64,000 nucleotides of DNA from Prochlorococcus sp. AG-436-C13 (GCA_003212695.1 QCPC01000005.1:1-64000), one strand, 5' to 3'. Positions 3,424 through 30,520 are shown, numbered from the stretch's first letter. The notes: generated from the sequence alone by a model not told the origin. Program-made: numbers and translations.

Positions 3424-3496
3424 TTAGAGGATCAGGATAAAGTAAACGTCCGAATAGAATTTATTAATTTCTTCTAATGGCTTTTCACCAGTCAAG

Positions 3497-3580: not shown

Positions 3581-3596
3581 AGGAATGCTTTTTGAT

Positions 3597-3908: not shown

Positions 3909-3958
3909 TAATTAATCAGTCCCAGAGTAATGTTCTAATTTTACAAGAATTATCATAA

Positions 3959-3994: not shown

Positions 3995-4029
3995 GTATAC
4001 TATGCATTCGTTTTGTGATGCGGAGTGTT

Positions 4030-5055: not shown

Positions 5056-5065
5056 AAATACAAGC

Positions 5066-6349: not shown

Positions 6350-6433
6350 TTTTACTTTTTAATCTGACATTATGTGATTGAAAGTGACCGCAAGATTTAC
6401 TAAAGAGAGTCGTTCGATAAAACAAATATGTAT

Positions 6434-7084: not shown

Positions 7085-7113
7085 TTTTTACTGGCTATTT
7101 CTATAAGACCATA

Positions 7114-7143
7114 TCATCATATCAATAATTATTGATATGATGA
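7114..7143. promoter_or_regulatory. Perfect 30-bp palindrome with ArsR-type core, ptrA intergenic region
   Basis: The 30 bases are an exact inverted repeat with no spacer. Its core is ATCAA-TAATTA-TTGAT (7121-7136), the same motif with the same spacing as at the gap1-arsJ promoter and before both pstS genes. It lies 30 bp upstream of the ptrA start and 9 bp upstream of the 7153 ATG on the other strand, so it can control either or both. Confidence 0.75.
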
Positions 7144-7152
7144 ATACACATT

Positions 7153-7347
7153 ATGCATGGTTCTATGGAATGGAAAGAATCCGATGAGCTTTTACAGCAA
7201 GCTGCGAAGCTTACAGTGATTCTTGATGGCGTCGTTAGGGATTTCTGTGACAGGCACATGGTTAGTGGCGAATGCGCTTGGCAATTAATACAAGGGTTAA
7301 GCGATATAAGACTCGAGGACATACGGAACGAAAGTACCTCTGAATAG
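7153..7347 (+). CDS. Hypothetical protein, 64 aa, between ptrA and pstS
   Basis: Begins MHGSMEWKESDELLQ; helical and charged, with CDRHMVSGECAW in the middle. A second ATG (M5) is possible. The family is not recognised. It is divergent from ptrA, downstream of the 30-bp palindrome and upstream of pstS, so it may be phosphate- or arsenate-responsive. The overlapping minus-strand frame is less protein-like. Confidence 0.55.
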   Translation: MHGSMEWKESDELLQQAAKLTVILDGVVRDFCDRHMVSGECAWQLIQGLSDIRLEDIRNESTSE

Positions 7348-7388
7348 CTGCCAGTATGTCTTGAAAAGGCAGTATTTGAAATACATTA

Positions 7389-7404
7389 ATCAAGAATACT
7401 TGAT
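7389..7404. promoter_or_regulatory. ArsR-type operator upstream of pstS copy 1
   Basis: Exact ATCAA-GAATAC-TTGAT, 49 bp before the pstS start. It has the same half-sites and 6-bp spacer as the other four sites in the window. The second pstS copy has its own exact site at a comparable position, which argues for function. Confidence 0.7.
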
Positions 7405-7453
7405 TAAATCAATATTTATTGTTTAGAGTTAGATTGAAATTCTTGCTTTTAAT

Positions 7454-8440
7454 ATGTCCTTCTCCAAGAAGGCTCTTCTTCTCTCCTCAGCGATTGTTTT
7501 AGGTGCTGGCATTTCAGCCTGCAGCTCATCAAACAATTCCAATGTACGTCTTAGTGGTGCAGGTGCTTCTTTCCCAGCAAAGATCTACACACGTTGGTTT
7601 GCTGATCTAGCTGACAAGAATGGACCTAGGGTTAACTATCAAGCAGTTGGCTCTGGTTCCGGGCGTAAAGCTTTCATTGATGAAACAGTTGACTTTGGAG
7701 CCTCTGACGATCCAATGAAGGCAAAGGACATTGCAAAAGTAACCCGTGGTCTTGTTCAGATTCCAATGGTCGGAGGAACCATTGCCTTTGGCTACAACTA
7801 CGATTGCGACCTTAAGCTCACCCAAGAGCAAGCAGTTCGTGTTGCTATGGGAAAAATTCAAAACTGGAGTGAGCTTGGATGCCCTGCAGGCAAACTAACC
7901 TGGGCACACCGTTCTGACGGTTCTGGCACAACGAAAGCTTTTACTAACTCAATGCAAGCTTTTTCTAATACATGGACTTTAGGAACAGGTAAATCAGTTA
8001 ATTGGCCTGTTGGCATTGGTGGCAAAGGAAATGCTGGAGTTGCAGGATTAATTCGCAACACTCCAGGAACGATAGGTTATGTAAACCAGTCATATATCAA
8101 AGGAGTAATTCAAGCAGCTGCCTTGCAAAATCTTTCTGGTGAATTTCTTAAGCCATCAACAGAAGCTGGTGCAAAGGCTCTAAATGGTATCACTCTGGAT
8201 CGAAATTTAGCTGGTAAAAACCCGAATCCAACAGCTAGAGGGGCATATCCAATTGCTACTTTAACTTGGATCCTTGCTTATGAGACTGGTAATGGCTCTA
8301 AAACAAAAGCCATACAAGAATCACTAAACTATCTTCTCAGTGATAAGGCTCAAGCTAAAGCTCCAACTTTAGGCTTCGTTCCTCTTAAAGGAGACATCCT
8401 TAAAAAATCTCGTTCAGCTGTCAAAAGGATTAGAAAGTAA
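7454..8440 (+). CDS. pstS: Phosphate ABC transporter substrate-binding lipoprotein PstS, copy 1, 328 aa
   Basis: Signal sequence with lipobox ending GISAC (Cys 23), then the PstS phosphate-binding motifs GAGASFPAKIY, GSGSGRKAFI, DFGASDDPM and RSDGSGTTKAF. It captures phosphate in the periplasm for PstCAB, which is not in this window. It is followed by a strong terminator, so it is probably monocistronic. A second full-length copy lies at 34709-35695. The neighbouring porin and PtrA fit a phosphate-acquisition cluster. Confidence 0.95.
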   Translation: MSFSKKALLLSSAIVLGAGISACSSSNNSNVRLSGAGASFPAKIYTRWFADLADKNGPRVNYQAVGSGSGRKAFIDETVDFGASDDPMKAKDIAKVTRGLVQIPMVGGTIAFGYNYDCDLKLTQEQAVRVAMGKIQNWSELGCPAGKLTWAHRSDGSGTTKAFTNSMQAFSNTWTLGTGKSVNWPVGIGGKGNAGVAGLIRNTPGTIGYVNQSYIKGVIQAAALQNLSGEFLKPSTEAGAKALNGITLDRNLAGKNPNPTARGAYPIATLTWILAYETGNGSKTKAIQESLNYLLSDKAQAKAPTLGFVPLKGDILKKSRSAVKRIRK

Positions 8441-8472
8441 TTTAAGCAAAAGCTTTATTAAATTTCCAAATT

Positions 8473-8501
8473 AAAAAGAGGGGTTTGTAACTCCTCTTTT
8501 T
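8473..8501 (+). terminator. Rho-independent terminator of pstS
   Basis: Stem AAAAAGAGG/CCTCTTTTT followed by T residues, about 32 bp after the pstS stop. A closely similar hairpin recurs at 8660-8688, and the flanking CCAAATTAA is also shared, so the segment looks tandemly duplicated. Confidence 0.85.
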
Positions 8502-8510
8502 ATCAAAACA

Positions 8511-8645
8511 ATGAAACAAAAACCATTAATTGATTGGATACTGTTTCCAATAACTCCTACCTTTAGGATGCTATTCTACAGGAAGCAAAATCGCTCACCA
8601 GAGATAAGAAGAAAGCTCTCAGTAGACGGAATGTTTTTTGATTAA
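8511..8645 (+). CDS. Small basic protein, 44 aa, downstream of pstS
   Basis: ATG frame starting MKQKPLIDWILFPITPTF; a short hydrophobic part followed by a basic tail (RKQNRSPEIRRK). It lies between two similar terminators, so it is transcribed by read-through or from its own promoter. The family is not recognised; the frame alone supports it. Confidence 0.4.
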   Translation: MKQKPLIDWILFPITPTFRMLFYRKQNRSPEIRRKLSVDGMFFD

Positions 8646-8659
8646 ATTACCAAATTAAT

Positions 8660-8688
8660 AAGAGAGAGTTTTACAACTCTCTTTTTTT
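8660..8688 (+). terminator. Second terminator, near-copy of the pstS terminator
   Basis: Stem AAGAGAGAGTT/AACTCTCTT with a T tract. The preceding bases repeat those before the pstS terminator, pointing to a local tandem duplication. It ends the 44-aa frame. Confidence 0.8.
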
Positions 8689-9049
8689 ATGCAGAACAAT
8701 GATCGTAAGTATAGGCAGTGGTTTATGTCTTTCAATAGCCCAACCAAATAGGTGTTAACCATAAAGAATCTACAGACAGTTTGGCTGCTAATACTCCTTA
8801 TAACAACAGAGCTAGGTAAATCAAAAAAGGCATGAAAAAGGCGCCCTCAAAGAGTAACGCCTAGCGACAATTGTGTGAGAAGTATCGCGCTTATTTTCTA
8901 CTACATCTCGAGAGTTTTGTCATTAGTTCTTTTTTTATTAGAGGTATTAAATTATACATAGCTCATGTGTTTAGACATACTTTTTACTTGACTGGAGTTA
9001 TTTACTATTGAATTGCCCACTTATTGGGTTTTCTGTGAGGAATCCTAAA
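8689..9049. other. Porin upstream region without a gene
   Basis: No convincing coding frame. It contains a stretch near 8860-8915 (including GACAATTGTGTGAGAAGT) resembling the sequence at about 50742-50790, which follows a perfect palindrome. It may hold the porin promoter, a long leader or a small RNA. Confidence 0.4.
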
Positions 9050-10321
9050 ATGAAACTTTTTCAGCAATTGCTGATAGCACCTGCTGCGCTTGGTCTTATA
9101 GCACCAGTCGCTGCTACTGCAAACGAGCTAAACATTAATGAAGGTAAAACTTCAGATGTTGTTGCCGAAGACCTTATTGCTGGTAAATTCGACTATGCTG
9201 GTCAATCCGACGATTTTGAGACAACTACAAAACTTAGCGGAAAAGTTGTTTTCAACGTTGGTGCCATCAATCTAGATGACGATGTAGCTGGCGCTGATAT
9301 GGGCGATAAGCTTACTTCAGGTTATGTGGTTCAGTACAACATCAAAACAAGTTTTACTGGCGAAGATAAGTTATACACACGCTTAAAAGCAGGCGATATG
9401 GCTAATACACCATGGGAGAACACAGCTTATAACACTCACCTTAAAGATGCTCATAATAGTACTAATGCTATCCAAGTAGACAAAATTTGGTATGAATTCC
9501 CAGTAGGGCAATTCAAAGTTTGGGCTGGTCCAAGGATTGAAAATTCCTCCATGGTTGCTAGTAAACCTTCTATCTATAAGCCATTACTAAAATCTTTTGA
9601 CTTAGGTGGAAACGGGCCTGTTTACGGTTCTAGTACATCTCCTGGATTTGGCGTTGCTTGGGTTCAGCCTACAGAAAGCAAATCTGATTTTAGATGGGAA
9701 GTTGCTACCAATTATGCTGCAAGCGGTGGAGACGATTCTACTCGGGGAATTTTAACTGACGAGTCACAAGGGAAATGGCTGTCTAAAGTTGGTTATGGTT
9801 CTCCTAGGATGCAGGTATCTCTAGCTTATGCTCAGAACATATGCAGGTCTGATACTACTTGTAGAGACTGGGCAGCAAATAGTTCAAGTACTCAAGGAGG
9901 TACTACCACAGGCGATTCTAGAGGATTAGGCCTAAGAGGTTATTGGAAGCCAGAAGAAACTGGAATTGTTCCTTCTATTCAGGTCGGACTAGATCAAATG
10001 GATGTAGATAATACAACTACTGGTACTGAAACTGAAAAGCAGAGCATGTGGATGGCTGGCTTAACTTGGAAAGATGCATTCCAAGATGGCAACAAACTTG
10101 CAGCAGCAGTTATGTCTCCAACAATAGCTAGCTCAATAAGAGGCGGTGCTGATGATGGAGCCAAGTCTGGTCTGCAATGGGAAGTCTATTATGACGTCTC
10201 GATTAATGATGGAATGACTGTCACCCCTGCTATCTTCGGTGCACAGGATATAAGTGATGGAGCAGCTACTGGGCATGACGATTATTTAGGAGCTGTAGTT
10301 AAAACAACTTTCAAGTTCTAA
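9050..10321 (+). CDS. Outer-membrane porin of the cyanobacterial Som/PhoE type, 423 aa
   Basis: Signal peptide MKLFQQLLIAPAALGLIAPV ending near ATANE, then a beta-barrel sequence (many alternating hydrophobic residues, aromatic strand ends) finishing in TTFKF, typical of a porin C-terminus. No SLH domain is evident, as in the phosphate-stress porins of Prochlorococcus. The start at 9050 gives the normal Som-type leader; the frame opens 42 bp earlier. Proximity to pstS suggests a phosphate-inducible channel. Confidence 0.85.
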   Translation: MKLFQQLLIAPAALGLIAPVAATANELNINEGKTSDVVAEDLIAGKFDYAGQSDDFETTTKLSGKVVFNVGAINLDDDVAGADMGDKLTSGYVVQYNIKTSFTGEDKLYTRLKAGDMANTPWENTAYNTHLKDAHNSTNAIQVDKIWYEFPVGQFKVWAGPRIENSSMVASKPSIYKPLLKSFDLGGNGPVYGSSTSPGFGVAWVQPTESKSDFRWEVATNYAASGGDDSTRGILTDESQGKWLSKVGYGSPRMQVSLAYAQNICRSDTTCRDWAANSSSTQGGTTTGDSRGLGLRGYWKPEETGIVPSIQVGLDQMDVDNTTTGTETEKQSMWMAGLTWKDAFQDGNKLAAAVMSPTIASSIRGGADDGAKSGLQWEVYYDVSINDGMTVTPAIFGAQDISDGAATGHDDYLGAVVKTTFKF

Positions 10322-10361
10322 TCTAACAAGTACTTTTAGACATAAGAATCTGACAAAAAGG

Positions 10362-10388
10362 AGTGCTCTTACTAAAGAGCATTCCTTT
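10362..10388 (+). terminator. Terminator of the porin gene
   Basis: Stem AGTGCTCTT/AAGAGCATT with a 4-base loop, followed by CCTTTTT, 40 bp after the porin stop. Confidence 0.85.
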
Positions 10389-11123
10389 TTATTAGCAATT
10401 AAAAAACAACGAATTAAGTAGTTAAAATTGGATTAATAGGGATATTGATATTGCCTTTAAGGGGCATGGTCATCACATCAAGAGCTGAAAGGAAAAGGAG
10501 AAGATGTGATGCCCTCGAACGATTATCTCTTCAATTTGATCTCCTTTATGTTCCCTTAGATTCATGCGAACCAAAGCAGAAAATCCTTCTTTTTAGTTTT
10601 TAAAAGCTAAATATCAAATTGAAAGATATTACCTTTGTCTGATTAAGACTAAGAACATTCCTCTACTAGAGATCGAAGATATCTCTTCCTTTGCCCACTT
10701 GCCTCTATAGCAACATCAACAACATTGATTTTTGCGTAACCTCTCTGGGCTCCTTTAAATTCGGTTTCTCTCTTTGTGAGAGTTTTCTTTTCTATCCTCA
10801 TATTTATATTCAACCATCTTAGATATGATTTGTCATGTATCTATGCATACATTTACTAGTAAAAAGAAAGATTACTTTCTTACTATTCACATAAGAATCA
10901 TCATATTTAATTTAAAAATATTAGGTGTTTAATTAACCAAATTTTCCAGTGAAATATTCTTTAGTAGCCTTTTCTACATGAGAGTTAAATATTTCTTTTT
11001 TATCGTCAAATTCCACTAAATATCAACCTTTCCATCATAATTCCCTTCCTTTTTAGTTGGGATATAAAGAGTCCTGATTTAGCTCCATAATTGATATAAA
11101 AACTAATCAATAATTAAAATCAA
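10389..11123. other. Gene-poor region, probable left margin of the integrative element
   Basis: No convincing coding frame in about 735 bp. Near its right end (11061-11086) lies GAGTCCTGATTTAGCTCC, a short sequence that recurs at 23951-23976 and, more diverged, at 41801-41820. I could not find a tRNA fragment marking the element's left end here. Confidence 0.4.
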
Positions 11124-11555
11124 CTAAACATCAATAACTTCATGTGTCGCTCCACCTTCTAATGCTTCGAGCGCTGTTCTTATCTTTTTGAGTTGCTCTC
11201 GATTCTCTCTTTCAATTACACCTTGCTGCAATATCCTGAAACTCTCTGCTATAGCTTGGATTTGGGCGTATGGCTTTACTTTAGGGTCTAGCCCTAATTG
11301 GATTAATCGTGCTGCAAGCTTTGGTGCAGCATCGCTAAATAAAGTATGAGCTTCAGCAAGATTTTCTTTTATTGCTTCAGATAAGAAGGCTTCAAAGTCA
11401 GGATGCTTTCGCCAAGCCCTCAGATTATTTGGAGTTACACCAACATTCTCTGCACATTGAATCCAACTCAATCCTTGGCTTCTTAGCAGGATTGCTTGCC
11501 TAACTTTTGGCGGAAGTTCCATATCCTCCCGCCTTGGTTTCCCTACTTTTGCCAT
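11124..11555 (-). CDS. Terminase small-subunit-like DNA-binding protein, 143 aa
   Basis: N-terminal helix-turn-helix of phage-terminase style (RQAILLRSQGLSWIQCAENV, then TPNNLRAWRKHPDFEAFL), followed by a helical region and a charged coiled-coil tail (IERENREQLKKIRTALEAL). Small terminases recognise pac sites for packaging. A satellite could use one to redirect a helper phage's packaging machinery. It is the last minus-strand gene of the element. A simple helix-turn-helix regulator is the main alternative. Confidence 0.6.
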   Translation of the reverse strand: MAKVGKPRREDMELPPKVRQAILLRSQGLSWIQCAENVGVTPNNLRAWRKHPDFEAFLSEAIKENLAEAHTLFSDAAPKLAARLIQLGLDPKVKPYAQIQAIAESFRILQQGVIERENREQLKKIRTALEALEGGATHEVIDV

Positions 11556-12023
11556 TCAGGTTTGCCAGTTACACCCCACTCAGCTCATGCTTGAGCAATA
11601 GCTTCTGTGTGATCTAAGGCCATAATAAGACTTGCTAACTGTTAATATTAACCTTAAATATTGCTGGTAGATGTAATGCATTCCTTCCAGGTAAATGTGT
11701 TGTCATAAATTATAAACTTGTGCTATCATTTTGTTTAGCTAAGTAATAGGTAAGCTGCTATACATACTGAAAAAGTGCAACCCCCCCTCTAATTGTCAAA
11801 TAATTAGTGTTAATCTGTAAGGTGCAACTTTATTGGTAATAGTAATAATAAGAGATTAATACTTTCAAGACTTTGGTAGCAAGAATGTCTTTGAATATGT
11901 GAGAACCACGTAAAACAAATGAGTTGTCATTTTTTAGCATTGGGTTGCCAAGGTTCAAAGGGCCAGTAATTGCAAGCCAGTTGTCATTCCAGACGAAATG
12001 TAAACTCAAATACTTTTCAAACC
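11556..12023. other. Region without a supported gene inside the element
   Basis: About 470 bp with a C7 run near 11782 and low-complexity AT sequence; the minus-strand frame at 11830-12102 is not protein-like. It separates the terminase-like gene from the minimal recombinase and may hold their promoters. Confidence 0.4.
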
Positions 12024-12605
12024 ATGCCAAAGACCAACGGTGAGGGGCAGGCAACCACACTTGATCCACAACAATTAGATCTTTTATTAGATTCAGCTCC
12101 ATCTCCTGAACATCGTGCGATTTGGAGTATACAAAGATTCACAGGTTCAAGGATTACTGAAACTTTGCTTTTAACTTGGGGTGCTATCCATGAAGACAGG
12201 ATTACCTTTTCAAAAAGTACAACAAAGACAAAACAAACAAGAGAACCTTTGATAGATCCAAGGCTAAGAAAAGAGTTGGATTTTTATCGAACTTTATGGG
12301 TTGCCAAGTATGAAAAACAACCTTCTAAAAATGAGTTCGTTTTTCCATCTAGGTATGGAACTTATAAAAGTATGACCAGACAAAATGCAGATAAAGTTTT
12401 AAGGGTGACTTTAGAAAATTGTGGGTTGCCTTCAGGATGTTCCCTCCACTCCTTTAGAAGATCTTTGGCAACTGCAATGCATAAATCTGGAGTCGGGCTG
12501 AAAACAATTTCACGATTTACAGGTCATAAAAGTTTGGCGCAGTTAGCTGAATACATTGATGTTTCTACTGCTGACGAAATGAAGGCATTGGCTGCTTTGC
12601 ATTAA
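12024..12605 (+). CDS. Minimal tyrosine recombinase (catalytic domain only), 193 aa
   Basis: The catalytic set of the tyrosine-recombinase family is visible: Arg in FTGSRITETLL, His-x-x-Arg in LHSFRRSLATAM, His in GHKSLAQ and the nucleophile Tyr in AEYIDVS. The N-terminal core-binding domain is missing. Start taken at MPKTNGEG (12024); the frame is open from 11970. It is the only plus-strand recombinase in the element. It could help excision, resolve replication products, or be a truncated relic that kept its active site. Confidence 0.8.
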   Translation: MPKTNGEGQATTLDPQQLDLLLDSAPSPEHRAIWSIQRFTGSRITETLLLTWGAIHEDRITFSKSTTKTKQTREPLIDPRLRKELDFYRTLWVAKYEKQPSKNEFVFPSRYGTYKSMTRQNADKVLRVTLENCGLPSGCSLHSFRRSLATAMHKSGVGLKTISRFTGHKSLAQLAEYIDVSTADEMKALAALH

Positions 12606-12762
12606 AAGGCTTCGCATTATCCAACTATCAGGGCTGCAAAGCACAACTGCTGAGGAACCAGCGGGATCACTGAAGGGTTTAGACCGACTCAGGATGATAG
12701 GGAACATATGCCTGACTCCATACCAGTGGAATGGCAACCTTCTTTATTTAAGCAATAAATTA

Positions 12763-13131
12763 TTAGAACCAAAAACAACCTTTTTTATCAAAATCTTTTG
12801 AAGCCCTTTCCTCAATGTTGTTATATGGAAGCTTTACCGACTCCCTAAATTCTTCTCCTTCTTTCGGGAAATTCTTCCAAACATTATCTTCAAAATTCCG
12901 ACATTCTTTGTATTTAGCTGTTCCATATTCTCCAAATTTTGTGCATAATATTGTCCCATATTTTTCTCTCATTTTTTTGTATTTAAAATCGTCATATGCA
13001 TCTTTAAAAGCTTTTTGTCTTTGAATACTATTTCTTGAAATGACAGCTCTAATAGCTTCACATTCAACGTAATCTAATGCTTGAGCCGATGGGATCAGTA
13101 ATAGAAAGGGTGTTAGTAGCAAGCGTTTCAT
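12763..13131 (-). CDS. Secreted cysteine-containing protein, 122 aa
   Basis: Signal peptide MKRLLLTPFLLLIPSAQA, then a charged mature part with five cysteines, in the context VECEAI, TILCTKFGEY, KYKECRNF and KKGCFWF. Its first 18 bases (ATGAAACGCTTGCTACTA) recur at 20789, part of a leader module found on unrelated genes in this window. The start overlaps the stop of the 58-aa gene at 13128 (ATGA). Function unknown. Confidence 0.65.
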   Translation of the reverse strand: MKRLLLTPFLLLIPSAQALDYVECEAIRAVISRNSIQRQKAFKDAYDDFKYKKMREKYGTILCTKFGEYGTAKYKECRNFEDNVWKNFPKEGEEFRESVKLPYNNIEERASKDFDKKGCFWF

Positions 13132-13304
13132 TTGTCAAAAGCGGGGTTCTTACTTTCAACCCTAAGAACCATCTCCCATGCTGTAGTGGCAGGAATAGCG
13201 TCAGAGGGGCCAATTACGTGCAGTTTAAGCGCAGGTGGTTGAACTTGAGGGACAATCTTATTCAAACGTCGACGCATTGCCGCTAATTCTCTTTCAATAC
13301 CCAT
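13128..13304 (-). CDS. Hypothetical protein, 58 aa, coupled to a secreted protein
   Basis: Begins MGIERELAAMRRRLNKIVPQ; the N-terminal half is a basic amphipathic helix. Its TGA overlaps the ATG of the next gene, the pattern of a translationally coupled pair. The family is not recognised. Confidence 0.5.
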   Translation of the reverse strand: MGIERELAAMRRRLNKIVPQVQPPALKLHVIGPSDAIPATTAWEMVLRVESKNPAFDK

Positions 13305-13686
13305 GAATGGGCGACCTCAATCTGTTTCCTATAGTATAAAAGGCTTTTTTTGAACGTGAAAAAACTATGTTATCTGGGCGGAAAATACTTTATGGGGTGT
13401 GTAAGAAAAAGCTCCAAAAGGTAGAGAGATAATAGTAGTAGTAAGTAATTAGAGAGATTAAAAAGGAACTTAAAAAGGTCTAACACCTTAAAAAGGTACT
13501 TTTTATTGTCTGTAATCCCTTGCTGGGACTATATTCTCTGGGACTTTTTGCGTTTTTCACTGACACCCTCTTTGGTCTCCACCCTGCTAGGAGGAAGGGC
13601 TAATGCTTAGCCATTGTGCCAACTTGTCCAGCCCCTCCCATATGTAAGAATTGCAGCAATATCAATAATTAAACAATAAAAACAAG
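13305..13686. other. Divergent intergenic region with iteron-like repeats
   Basis: About 380 bp without a gene between a minus-strand and a plus-strand gene. It contains TTAAAAAGG three times (13458, 13470 and 13488), the last two as CTTAAAAAGGT, 18 bp apart. It could be an operator or, as the element carries a RepA-like ATPase, a replication origin; that is speculation. Confidence 0.45.
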
Positions 13687-14112
13687 ATGAGCCTTACTAT
13701 TGGATTGATAATCTTAGTTATTGCTATGGTTATCCCAGCATGTTTGATCTATCAAGAGGAAAAGTATCACGAATATTTTTCAAAAAAGTTAACTAAAATT
13801 CTAGTAATTATAGGGTTTATCCTATCAGTAACTTTGGTCATACAAGGTTTACATTTATTTCTCATAGGATATAAATTTGATCCCTCAGATCCACAACAGA
13901 TATCAGTTATAGAATTTTTCTATAGTAGTTATAGGACACGTTATATATTTGAACAGTTTGGTCCATTTATAATAAATAGTTCAAAATATCTCTTGGTTTT
14001 TTTCTTTGGATTGTCGACATGGAAAAACTATTTACTTTTAAAAGGTTTTGACAAAAACTATCCTTTAACTTCATCACTTTTTTCTAAATACTATTATAAG
14101 AAAAAAAAATAA
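13687..14112 (+). CDS. Membrane protein, 141 aa
   Basis: Three to four predicted membrane segments (about residues 2-20, 37-57, 88-110) and a strongly basic C-terminus ending YYYKKKKK. No family recognised. Convergent with the ATPase gene at 14161. Very AT-rich, like the cargo genes of the island. Confidence 0.6.
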   Translation: MSLTIGLIILVIAMVIPACLIYQEEKYHEYFSKKLTKILVIIGFILSVTLVIQGLHLFLIGYKFDPSDPQQISVIEFFYSSYRTRYIFEQFGPFIINSSKYLLVFFFGLSTWKNYLLLKGFDKNYPLTSSLFSKYYYKKKK

Positions 14113-14160
14113 AAGATACCCCTCTTTAGTCTTCCTTTCTTAGTCTCTTTCTATCAAATC

Positions 14161-15603
14161 CTACCTTTTCCAATAAACCAAAGCAGGTCTACCACCTGTT
14201 TTCTCTGAAGACTTACAGCGACCAACTCCTGTGACTTCTCTTTCGGAATATAACCTTGCAACCATTGCACCTAGATGAGCTTCACCATTCATAATTCCCC
14301 TCACTTCAGAAACTTTTTTATAGATCTCTTTAACGGTGTATTTATTAGGCCGATTCTTTTCTAGGAATAGTAAAGCTGCTTTTTCTATGGAATGGGCTTT
14401 ATCAATATCACCATTAGCTCTAATAGAGAGTGAGAATCTAAGGCTCTCTTCATCACCCATTAATTGATAGAGGTGGTCAGAGGGGGCAATCATAGAACGA
14501 TTTTTAAGATTCTTAAGTCGATATATTTTTTGTCCTGATTCTTTACCTGCTACCCAAAAGCCCCAAACGTCAGAAGCACCATTGAAGATAAAAACATTAC
14601 CGTAAAGATCGTCTTGAGTTACTTGATTACGGAAGACCTCAGTATCATCTTTACCCTTTTTCTTCTGTTGAGTTTGATCTTTTTTTAGGTGATGAGGGAT
14701 AAGAAATGTGCATCTTGTTCTACTAGCAATTTGGTTGACTTGATACATATAAAGACCAACTTCAGGAGTATTTAGATCATTCCCACCACCAAAGATTTTT
14801 ACTAAAGAATCCATAATGCACAAATCACTTTTATCTCTTTCAATCTCCTTTTCTAGGTCAGGGAGCATGGAGGGATTGAAGTTCCACTTGAAGGTTAGAT
14901 TTGCGTTATTGGGCTTGTAATCCATGATGTCGAATTTAACTTGAGCATCCGTTGGAGATTCATCGCATTGAACTACTTTGACGTTGCCTTTAGAAGTATC
15001 TAATTGACCAAAAAGTTTGTTACCAGTGCTTACAGCCTCGGCAATTTCATAACAAAAAGTTGATTTACCAGTACCACCTTGAGCAGCAAGAATTACAAGG
15101 TTTCCTTTAGGTAGGAGGCGATCTACTAAAGCCTCAGATTTGAGGTCTTTAGCGTTCATCAAATCTTCAAAAGTGGAATAATTTTTATTATCTGTATTTG
15201 ATTCAGCTATTAAATCTTGAACTACATTTCTAAAACCTTCTTTGCTTAAACCAGCCTCTCTTCTAAGGATTTCTAATGCAGCAGTTCTTTGAGATGGTCT
15301 AGGCAAAGTTGAAATTCTTTCCCAACCTTTTTCAATAACCTCTACTGCACTTGTGGCAGACTCAAGGAGACCAGGAGGTTCTTTCTTTTCTTTTTCTGGT
15401 CTAGTGGAGAAATTTTTTTCAATATCATTCAGCCTTTGCTTTAATTCGGATACACTTGTCTTTTTGTCTTCTCTCTCTCTCTCCCTAAGTTCGACTTTTA
15501 AATCGGTTTTGTAGTCATAGCCTTTTTCTTGTTTGTGATCTCGAGGGAGCTTCCCAAGCATTACTAGTCTTTCAAAAGCCTCTGTCTGATGATCAAACAT
15601 CAA
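14161..15603 (-). CDS. RepA-like AAA/RecA-fold ATPase, 480 aa
   Basis: After about 160 mostly charged, coiled residues comes a RecA-type ATPase domain: Walker A AAQGGTGKSTF (near 170), the Walker B-like run DLCIMDSLVKIFGGG and the sensor-like PHHLKK. A winged-helix-like tail follows. Such proteins are replicative helicase/RepA-like ATPases of plasmids, phages and satellites and probably help replicate the excised element. The start overlaps the upstream 78-aa gene by 11 bp, indicating an operon. Confidence 0.75.
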   Translation of the reverse strand: MMFDHQTEAFERLVMLGKLPRDHKQEKGYDYKTDLKVELREREREDKKTSVSELKQRLNDIEKNFSTRPEKEKKEPPGLLESATSAVEVIEKGWERISTLPRPSQRTAALEILRREAGLSKEGFRNVVQDLIAESNTDNKNYSTFEDLMNAKDLKSEALVDRLLPKGNLVILAAQGGTGKSTFCYEIAEAVSTGNKLFGQLDTSKGNVKVVQCDESPTDAQVKFDIMDYKPNNANLTFKWNFNPSMLPDLEKEIERDKSDLCIMDSLVKIFGGGNDLNTPEVGLYMYQVNQIASRTRCTFLIPHHLKKDQTQQKKKGKDDTEVFRNQVTQDDLYGNVFIFNGASDVWGFWVAGKESGQKIYRLKNLKNRSMIAPSDHLYQLMGDEESLRFSLSIRANGDIDKAHSIEKAALLFLEKNRPNKYTVKEIYKKVSEVRGIMNGEAHLGAMVARLYSEREVTGVGRCKSSEKTGGRPALVYWKR

Positions 15604-15829
15604 AAGGTCTCCAAAGATGTAATTGTTCTTTGAGAGTTAACTCATTTTGTTTTGCAATTTCTTTACAAGCACAGATGACTGCTAACTGAGTCCAAGAAGG
15701 TTCAAATGCATTATCGATATCTGTAAGAATTTCACCGAAGCCAGGAGGATCTATAAGATTTTGTATGTTTTGGAAGTCAGATTTCATTGCACTTAACAAG
15801 TCATTATTATCAGCAGCCATCAGGGTCAT
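15593..15829 (-). CDS. Hypothetical protein in the replication operon, 78 aa
   Basis: Acidic and helical; begins MTLMAADNNDLLSAMKSDFQ. It overlaps the genes on both sides (20 bp with the upstream one, 11 bp with the ATPase), so it is translated as part of the operon. No family recognised. M4 is an alternative start. Confidence 0.55.
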   Translation of the reverse strand: MTLMAADNNDLLSAMKSDFQNIQNLIDPPGFGEILTDIDNAFEPSWTQLAVICACKEIAKQNELTLKEQLHLWRPFDV

Positions 15830-16067
15830 AACCCTCCAATTGGCATTGTTGAGTAACCATGCGCCTGATAACGGCAGAAGCGTTTACACCTTCGATAATT
15901 GCTTGAGTACGAAGGAAAACACCTAAGCGTTTAGGGCAACGAAAACAGATCGTATCTACTAATGGAGCGCCAAAAGTTTCTCTGCGGTAGTACTCGTCTT
16001 TATTCAAAAGTTTGTTAGTTGATGTATAACAAGCTATCCAGAAAAAAGAGCCAGAGAATAACCTCAA
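15810..16067 (-). CDS. Ribbon-helix-helix-like small DNA-binding protein, 85 aa
   Basis: The part ICFRCPKRLGVFLRTQAI followed by EGVNASAVIRRMV has the spacing of a ribbon-helix-helix fold (short strand, two helices). It would suit an operon repressor or a replication-control protein. The first 25 residues look less conserved and the true start may be internal. It overlaps the next gene by 20 bp. Confidence 0.5.
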   Translation of the reverse strand: MRLFSGSFFWIACYTSTNKLLNKDEYYRRETFGAPLVDTICFRCPKRLGVFLRTQAIIEGVNASAVIRRMVTQQCQLEGYDPDGC

Positions 16068-16111
16068 GCCCTTATCCCAAAAAATTGATTACCAGTGACT
16101 CTAAAAGAGCA

Positions 16112-16606
16112 TCAATTGTTAGATTCCTTAGCTAATAATTCAATGTAATTCTTGAGGCTGTAGCCATGAGAATCACCGATACCTTCTACATGGGGGATAT
16201 CATCAACAAGGTCTATGTTATGTCCCCGCATAAACTCCTTTACTCGGGCATTAAACCAATCTTTAGCTGGTTGAGGTATTGCATCTTTCTGTTGCTGTTG
16301 CCATAGCCAACTATCAAATGCGTTTATAGCATCTTTTCTGCTCCAGCTTGGCAACCCTTCAAAATGGTTTCTTACTGGGCAATCTTTTCTGTTAATAAAG
16401 ACCCTTTTAGGCGGCCTGGACATTCCTTTTACATATCTTCTTGGATCCCTTGTACCTTCTACGGTTGCTTCAAGTGTATCTCCAGCAAATGTTTTATTAA
16501 TTCTTCCTTTATCTACAGTTAGCTGACCCATGCGTTTGTTTGCAGGGTCAGCCGCTACAACATTCTTCCTTACATCTTTTTGTCCAAGGACTTGTATTGC
16601 TTCCAT
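16112..16606 (-). CDS. Hypothetical element protein, 164 aa
   Basis: Basic, soluble, with KGMSRPPKRVFINRKDCPVR in the middle and a glutamine run (QQQQ) near residue 105. No domain recognised. It lies between the AlpA-like regulator and the replication genes, so a control or replication accessory role is possible. Confidence 0.6.
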   Translation of the reverse strand: MEAIQVLGQKDVRKNVVAADPANKRMGQLTVDKGRINKTFAGDTLEATVEGTRDPRRYVKGMSRPPKRVFINRKDCPVRNHFEGLPSWSRKDAINAFDSWLWQQQQKDAIPQPAKDWFNARVKEFMRGHNIDLVDDIPHVEGIGDSHGYSLKNYIELLAKESNN

Positions 16607-16665: not shown

Positions 16666-16899
16666 TTATTCATCAGCCTTGACCGCCGCTGGAGCATCCC
16701 AACGACCAAGTTCTTCTCGACAAGCAGCAACATTCCAAAGAACATTTGCTCTAGGTGTTGGCCCTGTAGTTACAAAGTGCGTGCCTTTTTTGAAGTAGCC
16801 TTCCTTCTTTCTGCGAAAAAGCGTTGCTTTAGACAGATTTAGTTCGCCAATAACATCCTTAGTTCGGAGCCAAAGCCCCGCTGGTAATTCAATAGACAT
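16666..16899 (-). CDS. AlpA/excisionase-like helix-turn-helix regulator, 77 aa
   Basis: LRTKDVIGELNLSKATLFRR, then KKEGYFKKGTHF, is the MerR/AlpA-type winged helix typical of prophage excisionases and satellite regulators. It lies 130 bp downstream of the full-length recombinase on the same strand, the usual int-xis type neighbourhood. It probably controls excision or int expression. Confidence 0.7.
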   Translation of the reverse strand: MSIELPAGLWLRTKDVIGELNLSKATLFRRKKEGYFKKGTHFVTTGPTPRANVLWNVAACREELGRWDAPAAVKADE

Positions 16900-17030
16900 A
16901 TTTTAAAGACCCTCTGGGCCTGTTGATGTGTATATCGTTTGCACCCTCTGGATGTTTGACCAGACAAGTCAGAAATTAATCTGCGATAGTTAACGCACTA
17001 CCACGCGGCAAATGTTGCTACCAAGTTTGC

Positions 17031-18251
17031 CTAGATGTCTCTATTTGTCAACTCCTTGTACCTTTGGCCTTGCTCTAAAGCCTTATCAATTTCATCCTCA
17101 TCAGTCCAAGTTCCATAGCTGCGGGTGTGGGTATCAGTCGAATGACCCATCAGTGCAGCAGCAATTCTTACACTAAGTCCATATTGTTGGTGCGCTCTTA
17201 AAGCAAAGCCATGCCTAAAGCTATATGCAGTCTTACCAGCCTTTGCAAGAGGCTCCCATGATTTCTGCCTCTTAAGATAAGTACGCGCAGCATCAGCTAC
17301 ACCTACTTTGCATACTGGCAATGCTTCATCATTATCAACGCGATTTACTAAGTCCCACTCGCTTGCCCACTGATTCAGGCATCTAAGCCTTCTACGTTTA
17401 GTCTGACCTGAACCACTTCTCTTAATGTAATTGCACCAAAGTTCACCATTTTCAACTTGAAGATGTTTAATTTCGATTGGTCTTAATCCAAATGCTGCCA
17501 TTAATTGAAATCCAAACTTCCAACGCTTAGCCGCCTCTTTATCTCTTGGGTGCTTTGATTCAACTGGAAGACTAGCTAAGAAAGAAATTATTTCCTCATC
17601 TTGAAGTGGAACGGCATCTTGCTTGGCTTCAACCTTGTCCCCATAGAACCCTTTTAATTCGATTGGGGGAGTCCAACGCTCAGAAGGAAGAATAAAATTA
17701 CCCTCTCTAGAAATGCCCCACTTGAGCATTGCAGAAAGATGTTGAAGTGATATTTGCCTCTGTCTTGATCCTGCCTCCCATTTTTCACTTGCTCTATCTA
17801 ATAAATCAAAAGCGTCTTTAGCATCAGAAACTTCTTTCAATCTTCTGCCAGTTGTCCCGTAATCCTTAGCCCAAGTTGATTCTTTTATTAGATTTTTTCT
17901 AATTTTATAAGCCCCAAATAGTTCCCATGCCTGTACTAACAAGGCTGATGCTGACTCGTTGCCCTCTGGTACTGGTATAGAAGCACCAAAAATAGCTTCA
18001 TAAGCTTCTTTTACATTTCTGCCGCCTGTTACAAGTCCAGCAATCTTTTCTACAGTATCTTGGATCTTTCTGGAATTAGAAGGAAGCCAAGCTATATCTA
18101 GAGTTTTGGTCTCGCGTGTTGTGTTTTGAAAACGAACATCTAATTTAGTTTTGCCACGTTGCGCACCAACTCGGTAAGCTGAACCTACGCTTAAACGTAG
18201 TTGGTTTCTCAGAGCCACCACCCAATCGTCAGCGTGCTTACGCGAAGGCAT
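17031..18251 (-). CDS. Site-specific tyrosine recombinase (integrase) of the element, 406 aa
   Basis: C-terminal catalytic domain with Arg in AAFGLRPIEIKHL, YSFRHGFALRAH, GHSTDTH and nucleophile Tyr in TRSYGTW. The position usually His in HxxR is Tyr (YSFR). The decayed homologue at 24.2 kb also has Tyr there (YSLR), so this is a family trait and not a defect. The N-terminal ~200 residues form arm- and core-binding domains. The start at MPSRKHADD is preferred; the frame is open to 18320. The gene begins ~140 bp upstream of the tRNA-Pro it presumably targets. Confidence 0.88.
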   Translation of the reverse strand: MPSRKHADDWVVALRNQLRLSVGSAYRVGAQRGKTKLDVRFQNTTRETKTLDIAWLPSNSRKIQDTVEKIAGLVTGGRNVKEAYEAIFGASIPVPEGNESASALLVQAWELFGAYKIRKNLIKESTWAKDYGTTGRRLKEVSDAKDAFDLLDRASEKWEAGSRQRQISLQHLSAMLKWGISREGNFILPSERWTPPIELKGFYGDKVEAKQDAVPLQDEEIISFLASLPVESKHPRDKEAAKRWKFGFQLMAAFGLRPIEIKHLQVENGELWCNYIKRSGSGQTKRRRLRCLNQWASEWDLVNRVDNDEALPVCKVGVADAARTYLKRQKSWEPLAKAGKTAYSFRHGFALRAHQQYGLSVRIAAALMGHSTDTHTRSYGTWTDEDEIDKALEQGQRYKELTNRDI

Positions 18252-18394
18252 CGTTCTTAGCTGAGGCGAGTGACAAAGCGAGTGACAAACGAGTGACAAC
18301 CGTTGTCCAAATGGTCGCATCTGAGGCTTGTTGAGTCAAGCAGCAAAAGCATTGCTAGCACTTAACTCTAGTTAGGGTCTACAATGTCAGTCAA

Positions 18395-18468
18395 CGGGGC
18401 GTGGCGCAGTTTGGTAGCGCGGGTGCTTTGGGAGCACTAGGTCGCAGGTTCGAATCCTGTCGCCCCGA
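18395..18468 (+). tRNA. tRNA-Pro(TGG)
   Basis: Complete cloverleaf: acceptor CGGGGCG/CGCCCCG, D arm GCGC...GCGC, anticodon arm GGTGC-TTTGGGA-GCACT with anticodon TGG, and T arm GCAGG-TTCGAAT-CCTGT. Discriminator A at 18468, CCA not encoded. The 3' part is duplicated downstream at 18647 and 20023 and, decayed, at about 30425 and 35788, marking it as the att site of integrative elements. Confidence 0.97.
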
Positions 18469-18646
18469 CTAGGTTTTCAAGATCTCAAGATGAGAAAGGG
18501 GCGCTGTAGGGGGCGCTAGAAAGTTCTAATCCCTTTAAATATGTTTTAATTTATTGCAATATTGAGTCTCAAATCGATTTGCATGACTTCTGTTAGTCCA
18601 TTGATAGCAATGCTTCTTGAGGAATCTCATCTTTTGCGACCGAGTC

Positions 18647-18702
18647 CTTTGGGAGCACTAGGTCGCAGGTTCGAATCCTGTCGCCCCGACTAGGTTTTCA
18701 AG
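18647..18702 (+). repeat. Perfect 56-bp copy of the tRNA-Pro 3' part (att-like repeat 1)
   Basis: The 56 bases equal 18426-18481, from inside the anticodon loop to 13 bp past the tRNA end. The 165-bp segment between the tRNA and this copy contains no gene, so it may be the remnant of an excised or collapsed insertion. Confidence 0.9.
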
Positions 18703-18811
18703 GAATGGGTATTTAGGGTTGAACCCAAAATCTAAGTAAGATCACTGCAAATAAAGGGTTTTAACGGACTGCTAAAAAAGTTCTTAGTATGTTTTTACTT
18801 TTAAGTTCACT

Positions 18812-18958
18812 GTGAAAAAAATTCTTCCTTTGGTATTTGCTCTTTCTATAGGAGCTGCTCCTGTTCTTGCTTGGGGAGGAGGAGATTGCCCTTTTTCTAA
18901 AGACAAGTCAAACCAAGAGACTAAAACTGAGCAAGTAGAAGAATCAGATAAGAAGTAG
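18812..18958 (+). CDS. Small secreted protein, 48 aa
   Basis: GTG start; signal peptide about 20 residues (KKILPLVFALSIGAAPVLA), then WGGGDCPF and a charged lysine/glutamate tail. Three bases before the DUF1651-like gene. Lies in the cargo between two tRNA 3' repeats. Confidence 0.5.
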   Translation: MKKILPLVFALSIGAAPVLAWGGGDCPFSKDKSNQETKTEQVEESDKK

Positions 18959-18961
18959 GTC

Positions 18962-19216
18962 TTGAAAATAAAAGAAGGGTGGCTAGTTAAACCTGATCGA
19001 GTTTGGGGACTAAGGTTTTTTAATGACCCTCATAACAAATTCACCCCACATGTATATATCCAAAAAGCATCTTGCTCATATCTTTTCTTTCATGGAATTA
19101 CCCCACAGGCTGTAATACGTGAATGCCAAAATTTGCCAAGGCATGAAGCTATAGAACTTTGGAAGCAATTAATAAAAGAAGGTTGGGAGAGAAGTGAACC
19201 TTTATGGATGTGTTAA
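18962..19216 (+). CDS. DUF1651-like protein, 84 aa
   Basis: Pattern EGWLVKPDRVWGLRF at the N-terminus and HEAIELWKQLIKEGW near the C-terminus matches DUF1651, a small family I know only from marine cyanobacteria. TTG start. Function unknown. Cargo of the tRNA-Pro island. Confidence 0.65.
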   Translation: MKIKEGWLVKPDRVWGLRFFNDPHNKFTPHVYIQKASCSYLFFHGITPQAVIRECQNLPRHEAIELWKQLIKEGWERSEPLWMC

Positions 19217-19387
19217 ATCAGCTAGGAATAAAGCATTAGAAAAAGGCTAAATTGTTTAGAATGAAGTTATTAATCTTGAAATCAAGATCTTTTTATTACT
19301 AGGCAAGACAATTAAAAGCGATTGATATTGATTATTTGCCATTTAAGTGTGAAGTTTTCAATAATCATATTATTTCCTTAAATTAAG

Positions 19388-19696
19388 ATGACTCAATTCT
19401 GGAGACTTTTTACATCTGATTATGTTCAAGATTTTGTCGACTCCAAGCCAATACCTACAAAAGATGAAATAGCAGAAACCTATACAAGTCAGTTTAACAA
19501 GGTCTTAAATCCTCATAAGCAGAAGGTAGCCAACTTCTTTCAAAAGCTCCCTTCATTCAAGCAATTTATAGCAATAGTAAAAGACCCTACACTTCTCCAA
19601 GTCAAAAAGACTCCAGTGAGTACCCCTGTCAATGACACAACGCCATTAACTCAGCCTGTATATTCTGATCAAGGTATGGACTTGGCTTTTGCTTAA
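19388..19696 (+). CDS. Hypothetical protein, 102 aa
   Basis: Begins MTQFWRLFTSDYVQDFVDSK; soluble, with a proline/threonine-rich C-terminal third. No family recognised. Followed by a very strong terminator. Confidence 0.55.
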   Translation: MTQFWRLFTSDYVQDFVDSKPIPTKDEIAETYTSQFNKVLNPHKQKVANFFQKLPSFKQFIAIVKDPTLLQVKKTPVSTPVNDTTPLTQPVYSDQGMDLAFA

Positions 19697-19732
19697 TTCC
19701 CTTATCTTTATTCGTCTTATTAAAATTCTTTG

Positions 19733-19777
19733 AGACTTTTATTTAAGGCTTAACAGCCTTAAATAAAAGTCTTTTTA
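19733..19777 (+). terminator. Strong terminator after the 102-aa gene
   Basis: A perfect 17-bp stem (AGACTTTTATTTAAGGC and its complement) with a 6-base loop, followed by T5. It is the last recognisable element before the next tRNA fragment. Confidence 0.9.
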
Positions 19778-20022
19778 ATTAAGGCTCCAATTTCTCCATC
19801 AGCTATATCCGCCTTGGCATATCGCACTTGATGCTGTTCTTCTAACAGGCGTAGTTTCTTATTTCATTTATAAGCGGATTGGTTCTTCCTAGAGCTTTAC
19901 CTGTAAAAACTATCTGTGCCCTAGTTTTGCCCTAGGCAGATGATTCTTGATCGATCATCGTAATTCAACAGGAAGTAAAACCATTGCAAATACTAGAGAA
20001 GTCAGTATGGGGCTATAGGGGC

Positions 20023-20074
20023 GGTGCTTTGGGAGCACTAGGTCGCAGGTTCGAATCCTGTCGCCCCGACTAGG
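20023..20074 (+). repeat. 52-bp copy of the tRNA-Pro 3' part (att-like repeat 2)
   Basis: Identical to 18423-18474 of the tRNA region, starting with the anticodon stem. After it, TCAAGGAATGGGT is shared with the repeat at 18647. Together the repeats bracket a 1.3-kb cargo (18703-20022) with three small genes and a terminator. Confidence 0.9.
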
Positions 20075-22158: not shown

Positions 22159-22251
22159 TCGTTCTGGCTTTGATATGACTTAGGTACGGTCATCGATTTG
22201 ATTTAGACACCTTGTATGTGGTAGAGGTAGAAGTTAGGAATTAACTACCCA

Positions 22252-22773
22252 ATGGCTCAACTAAAAATCAATGTTTCGGCGAAAGCAGAAGCAATGATAG
22301 CTCAATTACAGAAAGAGATCTTTAATCGTAGACGCAAGAAAATCACTGCACAAGGTGTAGTGGAGTCTCTTGTAGAAAGCGGTGCAAAATCTCAATCTGA
22401 CAAGCGTTATGCGTCTTCTTGGAAGAATCTAATTAAGGATATAGAGAAGGCAGCAAAACAGTCAGAAGTACATGGCAATAAACCTGCCAGTGTTTCTGCA
22501 GAAGAGTGGGCAATGCTTCTTGCTCATCGCACACGTAAGGGAACAGTTGCACCTAAGAAGGCAGCGGCCAAGAAGACTGCTAAGAAGCCAGCTGCCAAAA
22601 AGGCTGTCAAGAAAGCAGTTGCAAAGAAAGCTGCTCCTAAAAAGGCTGCTGCAAAGAAGGCAGTTGCTAAACCTGCTGCTAAAAAAGCTGAGCCAGGAAT
22701 GACAGCAAAGCCCAGAAAAGCTAGACGTGCAAAAAGAGCACCAGGTAAGCCTGCACCCTCGAAGCTAGCTTAA
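22252..22773 (+). CDS. DNA-binding-like protein with lysine/alanine-rich tail, 173 aa (copy A)
   Basis: N-terminal ~95 residues (AKAEAMIAQLQKEIFNRRRK, ITAQGVVESLVESGAKSQSD) form a helical, ribbon-helix-helix-like domain. The C-terminal ~75 residues are AAKK/PAAKK-type repeats like a histone H1 tail, ending RKARRAKRAPGKPAPSKLA. This suggests a nucleoid-associated or chromatin-like protein. Copies B (41209) and C (52454) are closely related. The upstream region shares GTCATC(A/G)ATTTGATT with theirs. Confidence 0.7.
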   Translation: MAQLKINVSAKAEAMIAQLQKEIFNRRRKKITAQGVVESLVESGAKSQSDKRYASSWKNLIKDIEKAAKQSEVHGNKPASVSAEEWAMLLAHRTRKGTVAPKKAAAKKTAKKPAAKKAVKKAVAKKAAPKKAAAKKAVAKPAAKKAEPGMTAKPRKARRAKRAPGKPAPSKLA

Positions 22774-23951: not shown

Positions 23952-24179
23952 GGATAAAAGACTCCTGATTTAGCTCAAGTCTTCATATTGTTAGGTAGTG
24001 CAGTGCATTAGCTCTTAGCCTTCCTCCTAGTGTAGATCACATAAGAAATAAAACTGACCAATACCAGTGATTCAAATTCTAGGTGCCATGGACTTAGAAA
24101 GGTATTTATTGGCTGTGCTCTCCATTTATTTAGCCTTCATGAGTTTCATATCTGAATTATGCCATTGACTTCTTTCTTG

Positions 24180-24450
24180 TAACCTTAAAGGCATTTGTCG
24201 TAGTTGATTCTTTTGAATAAGGATAATTTCTATAGTGAGCCTCGATTGAATGCCCCATGCTTCGTGATGCACTGCCAGAATCAATCAAATTGAGATTGCA
24301 ACGAAGCGTATAGTAATGCCTTAATGAATAGCAGGTTATGTTTGCTCCTTGAGTCTTCTACATTAAAGCTTTTAAGTCTTTCCAGCTTTGTCGACGTTTT
24401 AAATAAGTACCAGCTGCTTCACCATCAACCTTCTCAGGTAAAGGCAATAA
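24180..24450 (-). pseudogene. Decayed tyrosine recombinase, C-terminal part
   Basis: In one minus-strand frame: AAGTYLKRRQSWKDLKALM, a stop, then TCYSLRHYYTLRCN and MGHSIEAHYRNYPYSKES. This aligns with the intact integrase (ARTYLKRQKSW, AYSFRHGFALRAH, MGHSTDTHTRSYGTW), including Tyr at the usual His. Evidence of an older element of the same family. Confidence 0.85.
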
Positions 24451-24599
24451 ATTTCCTTTAAATCTTTCTAATAGGTTCCATTTGATTTCATTGTTTTTTC
24501 GCATAATCGTTTTCTGTAAGAAGAGATGTATCTAGCTAATGCCTGTTTTTCATCCCATAGAGGAGGCGGACAAACTTTTTGACCACACTCAATATATTG

Positions 24600-27749: not shown

Positions 27750-27980
27750 TCACTTGGTTAGATTCCGTAAAAAAGCAGCATTACAATTACAGCATCCCCA
27801 ATCTCTAGCTGTTGAAAAATCCGGCTCACAACTAACAATATGAAATTTCTTAAGAAGCCTCTGGACTTGGTAGCCCCATAAGGCTGGTTTAATTTCTTTC
27901 TTGCCGCATATTGGGCATTTTATTGGTTTTTCATTTACTAGAAAAGAATTACGTGAACCAGCGATTTTGGCGATTTTCAT
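27750..27980 (-). CDS. Zinc-ribbon-like small protein, 76 aa
   Basis: Two CxxC pairs: KCPICGKKE near residue 22 and WGCCNCNAAF near residue 64, likely binding one zinc. No other domain. The upstream sequence runs into the integrase relic at 28 kb, so its promoter may derive from the old element. Confidence 0.6.
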   Translation of the reverse strand: MKIAKIAGSRNSFLVNEKPIKCPICGKKEIKPALWGYQVQRLLKKFHIVSCEPDFSTARDWGCCNCNAAFLRNLTK

Positions 27981-28004
27981 GCTAAAGACCTCTCTCTTGG
28001 AGGC

Positions 28005-28140
28005 TTGAAGGCATTGTTAGTAGTTGATTCTTTTGAGTAAGGATAATTTCTATGGTGAGACTCGATTGAATGACCCATGCTTAGAGATGAACCCAGAATA
28101 AATTAATTTGATGTGACAGCGTAGATCTCATAAAAGGTCC
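28005..28140 (-). pseudogene. Second integrase relic (C-terminal fragment)
   Basis: Encodes LGSSLSMGHSIESHHRNYPY followed by SKES, which aligns with the relic at 24.2 kb (GSASRSMGHSIEAHYRNYPY) and with the end of the intact integrase. The DNA is also close to that relic (TAGTTGATTCTTTTGA and neighbours). Only about 45 codons survive. Confidence 0.8.
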
Positions 28141-30424: not shown

Positions 30425-30520
30425 TATAGGGGTATGTGTTCTTTGGCATCACTAGGTTGTAGGTTCGAAGCCTGTGGTCCGACTAGGATGCTGAAGTGAT
30501 GAGTTTTTCGGTTGCATCCT
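30425..30520 (+). repeat. Decayed copy of the tRNA-Pro 3' repeat and its flank
   Basis: Matches the repeat at 20023 and its flanks with scattered substitutions: TTCTTTGGCATCACTAGG, TAGGTTCGAAGCCTG, CCGACTAGGATG, then GAGTTTTTCGGTT as after the 20023 copy. It is followed by a relic of the small membrane gene and by the leader module, the same order as at 20 kb. Confidence 0.8.

Follow-up and report, generated by a model that had tools for sequence, protein, structure and literature searches.

A tyrosine integrase 5' of tRNA-Pro in Prochlorococcus as the probable end of a mobile element of mirror polarity

The tRNA-Pro locus

The stretch of DNA analysed here (the window) comprises positions 1 to 64,000 of contig C5 in the draft genome of Prochlorococcus sp. 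AG-436-C13 (alias G000), a single-cell-like assembly of 1.55 Mb in 38 contigs that is 79% complete. It holds the sole tRNA-Pro(TGG) gene (18395-18469), with the intact open reading frame (ORF) of a tyrosine integrase on the 5' side of the gene and repeats of the tRNA 3' half on its 3' side. A preliminary description had placed the integrase 5' of the tRNA and called this polarity unusual compared with classical islands; both statements hold, since the integrase ORF starts 74 bp 5' of the tRNA and runs divergently from it, and a matching 5'-half partner of the gene was found on contig C31. tRNA genes were called with ARAGORN/Rfam, protein families were assigned with PHROG, Pfam (PF) and NCBIfam, and the AlpA-like gene was located by tblastn in relatives, numbered below with the prefix G. 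The features next to the tRNA, including its attachment (att) core, are as follows.

16666-16899, minus strand: AlpA-like helix-turn-helix protein, 77 aa, candidate excisionase (tblastn in most front-side elements)
17031-18320, minus strand: tyrosine integrase of the putative mirror-image element, 429 aa (ORF, PHROG match, relatives)
18268-18298, plus strand: right arm-type sites, three copies of GAGTGACA at 18268, 18280 and 18291 (motif scan)
18380-18394, plus strand: predicted element-supplied tRNA promoter with a -10-like TACAAT 9 nt before the tRNA (conserved hexamer, comparison with C31)
18395-18469, plus strand: intact tRNA-Pro(TGG), probable hybrid gene (ARAGORN/Rfam, 5'-half partner on C31)
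18426-18436, plus strand: att core CTTTGGGAGCA, anticodon loop and 3' stem (common to 5'-half and 3'-half fragments)

The integrase matches the phrog_1 integrase family (PHROG search, E=6e-17) and has all of the catalytic R, K, R, H and Y residues, with Tyr replacing the first His, a substitution found almost throughout the family; its nearest relatives are found in Prochlorococcus sp. AG-409-F19 and AG-436-K22. The AlpA-like gene, whose stop lies at position 16666, where the preliminary description began, is kept beside the integrase with 33-86% identity (tblastn) in most of the elements that occupy the 5' side of a tRNA, termed front-side below, and its product may be the excisionase. The three GAGTGACA copies adjoin the start of the integrase, towards the tRNA, and the first (18268) falls inside the annotated N-terminus of the protein.

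A partner end on contig C31

A tRNA search of the genome located a 5' half of tRNA-Pro at G000:C31:258-299 (minus strand), 100% identical to nt 1-42 of the tRNA and the only 5'-half tRNA-Pro fragment in the assembly. Contig C31 also bears a tRNA-Lys gene and the start of what we take, from its sequence alone, to be trmFO. In the relatives G010, G009, G012 and G011, an intact tRNA-Pro lies 4-5 kb after trmFO, and C31 is colinear with this trmFO-side flank as far as the tRNA 5' half, beyond which foreign sequence follows; by this colinearity, C31 marks the ancestral chromosomal position, at which the 5' half of the tRNA alone remains. G010, G009 and G012 possess an intact tRNA-Pro with the C31-type flank and no integrase, and the left flank plus intact tRNA of G009 and G010 provides the empty-site counterpart for the window element. 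A left element end inside the window was ruled out, since no 5'-half tRNA copy occurs anywhere on C5.

The two contigs are also linked by their arm repeats. C31 carries two copies of GAGTGACA 63-84 nt past the core, and the 64-kb window has no further copies beyond the three at the integrase (~1.1 expected, both strands). A scan of the window for exact 8-mers recurring 9-13 bp apart, with no motif preset, was positive in 11 of 290 window pieces, and four of the tandem pairs adjoin att copies (18268, 18498, 19917 and 20099). In 13 elements from the window genome and other genomes, the left and right ends share a tandem motif, as with CCAACAAAT in G010, TTGCACTCTC in G011, GCGGGATCTC in G016, TGAGAGCTG in G124, G135 and G173, and TGTACACAAAA in G031; the decayed arm pair of G006 is a weak match. 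Across these 13 elements, true end pairs share 129 7-mers versus a permuted mean of 48 (permutation, p<=5e-5). The spacing is alike in both polarities, the distance to the core being ~62-84 bp for left arms, apart from those of G010 at 105-121 bp, and ~100-210 bp for right arms. The core itself lies in the anticodon arm, since the 5' fragment stops at tRNA nt 42 and the 3' copies start at nt 28-32; the shortest fragments elsewhere cover nt 1-40 and 33-75, and the minimal overlap across genomes is TTTGGGAG.

Two polarities among relatives

All 17 integrase relatives with at least ~40% identity are front-side, divergent and 5' of tRNA-Pro 5'-half sequence, with an intact tRNA adjoining in 16 of them, although neither these nor the other counts of polarities given here are frequencies, because relatives were picked by similarity to the window integrase. 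More distant integrase relatives are classical, that is, they carry the 3' half, and have the same arm geometry. In every informative case, the integrase lies 5' of, and is directed away from, the core and 3' half: in the front-side type, this 3' half is fused to a 5' half (18 cases; G369 adds one with the 5' half alone), and in the classical type it is a bare fragment (19 cases), the intact tRNA being at the opposite end where visible.

The far end expected of a front-side element could be located in several genomes. Four single-contig genomes have a same-strand 5'-half fragment 19.1, 25.2, 28.7 and 43.3 kb upstream, G006 has a decayed one at 18.6 kb, and additional fragments occur on separate contigs; the layout of 5' fragment, integrase between and intact tRNA is seen on one contig in G080, G231, G135, G124 and G006. 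G314 represents the empty site for the G124 element, with an alignment of 82% over 575 nt that takes in flank and whole tRNA, whereas the match of G124 itself stops at tRNA nt 43. A separate observation concerns G035 (G035:C1:2053000-2063000, L181), in which a second tRNA-Pro is apparently split into nt 1-47 at 2059620 and nt 45-75 at 2056062, both on the minus strand and 3.5 kb apart, with no arm repeats near the 5' part.

The order of integrase and tRNA is alike in those 17 genomes, which span several genera, as would be expected if the integrase were a resident, vertically inherited neighbour of tRNA-Pro rather than an element end. Its distribution, however, is sporadic: most relatives lack the integrase, and the genes at 11-18 kb, far from being fixed 5' of every tRNA-Pro, are likewise missing from most of them. 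The intact tRNA-Pro with C31 flank and no integrase in G010, G009 and G012, the 5'-half duplications 19-43 kb away, the empty site and the variable gene content between the ends, where other front-side elements bear primase, terminase and unrelated cargo, speak against residence as well. We rejected a fixed resident integrase on its distribution and the empty sites, and consider this explanation extremely unlikely.

A single front-side clade that includes G031 was rejected in the integrase tree (approximately unbiased test, p-AU 4e-46), whereas one clade is acceptable for the other 17 front-side entries with G031 left out (p-AU 0.56). Since the front-side entries with G031 cannot form one clade, the tree indicates that polarity changed at least twice, in either direction, and that the front-side layout evolved at least twice.

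The 3' side of tRNA-Pro

The 3' side of the gene carries the following features.

18470-18643, plus strand: apparent classical-element scar, 174 bp, with two copies of GGGGCGCT at 18498 and 18510 (alignment to the G016 element)
18647-18690, plus strand: 3'-half tRNA-Pro copy 1, presumed classical att footprint (copy starts at 18644; identical to the tRNA from 18647, nt 32)
18691-20022, plus strand: 1.33-kb classical insert without integrase, with a DUF1651 ORF (two right arms TGCCCTAG at 19917 and 19928)
20023-20070, plus strand: 3'-half tRNA-Pro copy 2, followed by two left arms TGTAATCA at 20099 and 20110 (tRNA similarity, arm scan)
24108-24492, minus strand: decayed classical integrase, 90% DNA identity to the G010 integrase (similarity)
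27979-28124, minus strand: second decayed integrase fragment (similarity)
30438-30508, plus strand: degenerate 3'-half tRNA-Pro copy, 69% (tRNA similarity)

The two att repeats previously reported on this side are present, at 18644-18690 and 20023-20070, and a further, degenerate copy lies at 30438. Again as reported, no integrase separates the first two, the ORF and family search having found no recombinase ORF within 18470-20023. E-values of 2e-17 to 4e-19 exclude a chance origin of the copies. Either end, left or right, of the 2.2-kb classical element of G016 can be aligned with the 174-bp segment, and the two alignments meet or overlap at the arm repeats. The segment looks like a scar, or solo-att-like footprint, from recombination between the left and right arms of a classical element; G009 lacks it. 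In the adjoining insert, the left arms are degenerate and of a type other than the right arms, a mismatch which suggests a chimera of two elements. The insert is absent from G012, G002 and G006, all of which lack everything up to 20023. The empty-site junctions that had been predicted exist in relatives, with the tRNA of G009 continuing into window position 18641 onward and those of G012 and G002 into 20023 onward. The integrase relics at 24.1-24.5 kb and 28.0 kb fit the remains of decayed classical elements.

It had further been proposed that the window integrase moves the downstream cargo in trans. We rejected trans-mobilisation of the 3' segments on their arm motifs: other arm repeats are found there, and since none of the segments or relics bears GAGTGACA, which occurs nowhere else in the 64 kb, the window integrase is not expected to mobilise them. 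The same evidence bears on a related explanation, in which a classical 3'-side island had its integrase relocated to the 5' side by rearrangement, the enzyme still acting in trans on the 3' repeats. Such a history would account for the core sequence common to all tRNA copies and for 3' segments without an integrase, but not for the other arm motifs of the 3' repeats, the limitation of GAGTGACA to the integrase side and C31, the 5' geometry common to 17 relatives or the 5'-half partner on C31; it appears largely refuted already, and we regard it as very unlikely. The 3' repeats were presumably left as footprints by older classical elements whose arm motifs, and presumably integrases, were different, so that the window integrase and the 3' repeats appear to belong to separate elements of opposite polarity.

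Proposed mechanism

We estimate at about 90% the probability that the 5' side of tRNA-Pro holds an integrated mobile element of mirror polarity, that the 3' repeats are older classical footprints and that elements have used tRNA-Pro as an attachment site from either side. The mirror-image element is indicated by the 5' half on C31 at the ancestral position and the identical arm repeat at both ends; both end structures, the matching arms, their conservation, the sporadic distribution and the empty site can be read from the sequences themselves. The window integrase would perform the reaction, which can be pictured in several steps: (i) the circular attP would have the order integrase, right arms, promoter, tRNA 5' half, core and left arms; (ii) a crossover at the anticodon-arm core of the chromosomal tRNA-Pro would place the element 5' of the gene; (iii) the original 5' half of the chromosome would be stranded at the far (left) element end; (iv) a working tRNA would be rebuilt from element promoter, element 5' half and chromosomal 3' half; and (v) older classical elements, having carried the 3' half, would have left the repeats 3' of the same gene.

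The tRNA-Pro of the window would accordingly be a hybrid, with an element-derived 5' half (18395-18436) and promoter and a chromosomal 3' half. The earlier suggestion that the tRNA travels with the element end would then be essentially correct for the 5' half and promoter. Of 19 front-side elements, 18 have a TANNNT hexamer that precedes the tRNA by 7-10 nt, and the sequence upstream of the window tRNA differs from the native upstream sequence kept on C31; we infer that tRNA-Pro is transcribed from the promoter of the element. According to a review, rebuilt bacterial tRNA genes use the original promoter with very few exceptions (PMC8371274).

Several observations weigh against this interpretation: (i) C31 and C5 are unjoined in the 79%-complete, 38-contig assembly; (ii) the integrase has no match in phage records and no relative in the viral contigs scanned; (iii) no 5'-half fragment was found for G013, G349, G171, G313, G325 and G116, mostly drafts, G171 being on one contig; and (iv) the 5' half of G035 is located elsewhere, without arms. 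The attP junction was likewise not found in the viral-contig scan. As C31 and C5 are unjoined, the size and continuity of the element are presumed, and two front-side elements could stand in tandem, the left end on C31 and the right end on C5 then belonging to different elements. Exactly such a tandem is seen in G369, and no overlap between the C31 and C5 ends was found. On the other hand, the G369 tandem joins differing arm motifs, whereas C31 and C5 have the same motif, and the assembly holds a single 5'-half fragment; we therefore think a tandem unlikely, if clearly worth considering, and treat C31 and C5 as the probable two ends of one mirror-polarity element.

Cargo and other features

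The element would measure at least 18.4 kb plus 0.26 kb, and this size, together with the inclusion of the cargo at 1-11 kb, follows from contiguity with the right end and the lack of another 5'-half copy. Its contents are listed below.

1-3504, unstranded: further cargo, two phosphodiesterase-like ORFs and a GTPase-like ORF; left contig end (protein similarity)
3505-11075, unstranded: arsenate/phosphate cargo, arsR, arsJ-associated GAPDH, arsJ, ptrA, pstS and porin (NCBIfam)
11076-16606, minus strand: satellite-like module (family matches, gene order as in G011)
11124-11555, minus strand: terminase small subunit (terS), phrog_7344 (PHROG)
11970-12605, plus strand: second tyrosine recombinase (family search)
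14161-15603, minus strand: AAA_25 primase/helicase-like gene, PF13481 (Pfam)

The remainder of 11076-16606 consists of hypotheticals and small ORFs. A classical 9.7-kb element of G011 has the same gene order as this module (terS 52%, AAA 55%); the incompletely assembled window element bears satellite-type genes, the phrog_7344 terS and the AAA_25 primase-like gene, and phage records gave no match. The 7.6-kb arsenate/phosphate cassette, whose right breakpoint in the window (11075) is sharp, is 99.0% identical, in inverted orientation, to a block inside the matched-arm classical element of G010 (G010:C11:38404-45955; L088/L049). The cassette resides in elements of opposite polarity, and its identity, compared with ~82% for the chromosomal flank, indicates a recent move between hosts. 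One protein encoded at 1-3504 recurs with 92-99% identity at scattered loci among congeneric relatives.

Other repeated features were noted in the window. Two pstS genes (7454-8440 and 34709-35716) flank the tRNA in opposite orientation with 82% DNA identity. Short dispersed repeats lie at 304-427, 887-999 and 3496-3571, and contig C10 of the window genome holds many more of them. Two copies of a histone-H1-like, Lys/Ala-rich gene (41124-41715 and 52369-52960) lie 11 kb from each other and are 99.5% identical, a 76% relative being located at 22168-22773, and a Cyano-1 RNA (RF01701) is found at 50567-50634, with related repeats near tRNA-Pro in G010, G013 and G006.

More broadly, we see even odds that insertion polarity is an evolvable trait of one integrase family, in which the arm-core-arm geometry is fixed and either tRNA half is captured, front-side elements taking over the promoter of an essential tRNA gene, while elements of opposite polarity stack on one tRNA, swap cassettes and collapse to short scars via left/right arm recombination.

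Comparison with known systems

Island delimitation usually looks 3' of the tRNA, so that a 5'-side arsenate/phosphate cassette would be omitted or its end misplaced. The only tRNA-Pro(UGG) gene has its promoter and 5' half on the element, so that gain or loss of the element would alter the expression of an essential tRNA. The arm-repeat signature pairs element ends, infers polarity and reads the history of stacked islands from sequence alone, and is relevant to the movement of nutrient genes in Prochlorococcus.

The mirror layout has precedents, though rare ones: in the Islander database, 159 of the 3919 islands have a 5' tRNA fragment (PMC4383910). As in those islands, the element is bounded by a 5' fragment upstream and by the intact tRNA at its other end, the crossover is centred on the anticodon, and tandem arrays are recognised (PMC4383910); a same-strand upstream 5' fragment (on C31 in the window genome), an integrase between fragment and tRNA, and an empty site were all found here. 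The present case differs in that 5' polarity, which arose at least twice, characterises an integrase subfamily whose arm geometry is conserved, and in that the tRNA is shared with classical elements. According to the review cited above, pTN3-like archaeal integrases also use the tRNA 5' half, the rebuilt tRNA being expressed from element-side sequence, a situation seldom met in bacteria (PMC8371274). Both features recur here, the second as a prediction; however, pTN3-like integration, as described there, splits the integrase gene, whereas the 429-aa window ORF is intact beside the tRNA (PMC8371274).

The window element is itself a tRNA-linked picocyanobacterial island with a tyrosine recombinase and satellite/nutrient cargo, which is a tycheposon feature. 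Tycheposons of Prochlorococcus, the subject of work by Hackl et al. in 2023, are reportedly tRNA-linked islands with a tyrosine recombinase, satellite genes and nutrient cargo. Two further papers likewise associate picocyanobacterial tRNA-linked islands with these traits (PMC10872708, PMC10187409). In the latter, variable islands with nutrient cargo have picocyanobacterial integrases upstream of tRNA-Phe or tRNA-Cys, as the window integrase is upstream of tRNA-Pro, but they concern other tRNAs and are described as missed by PHROGs models, whereas the window integrase matches phrog_1; the passages on them report no 5'-half duplication or arm sites (PMC10187409). The aspects that are new, as far as could be checked, comprise front-side use of tRNA-Pro throughout the subfamily, arm geometry conserved across polarities, repeated change of polarity and cargo found in both types.

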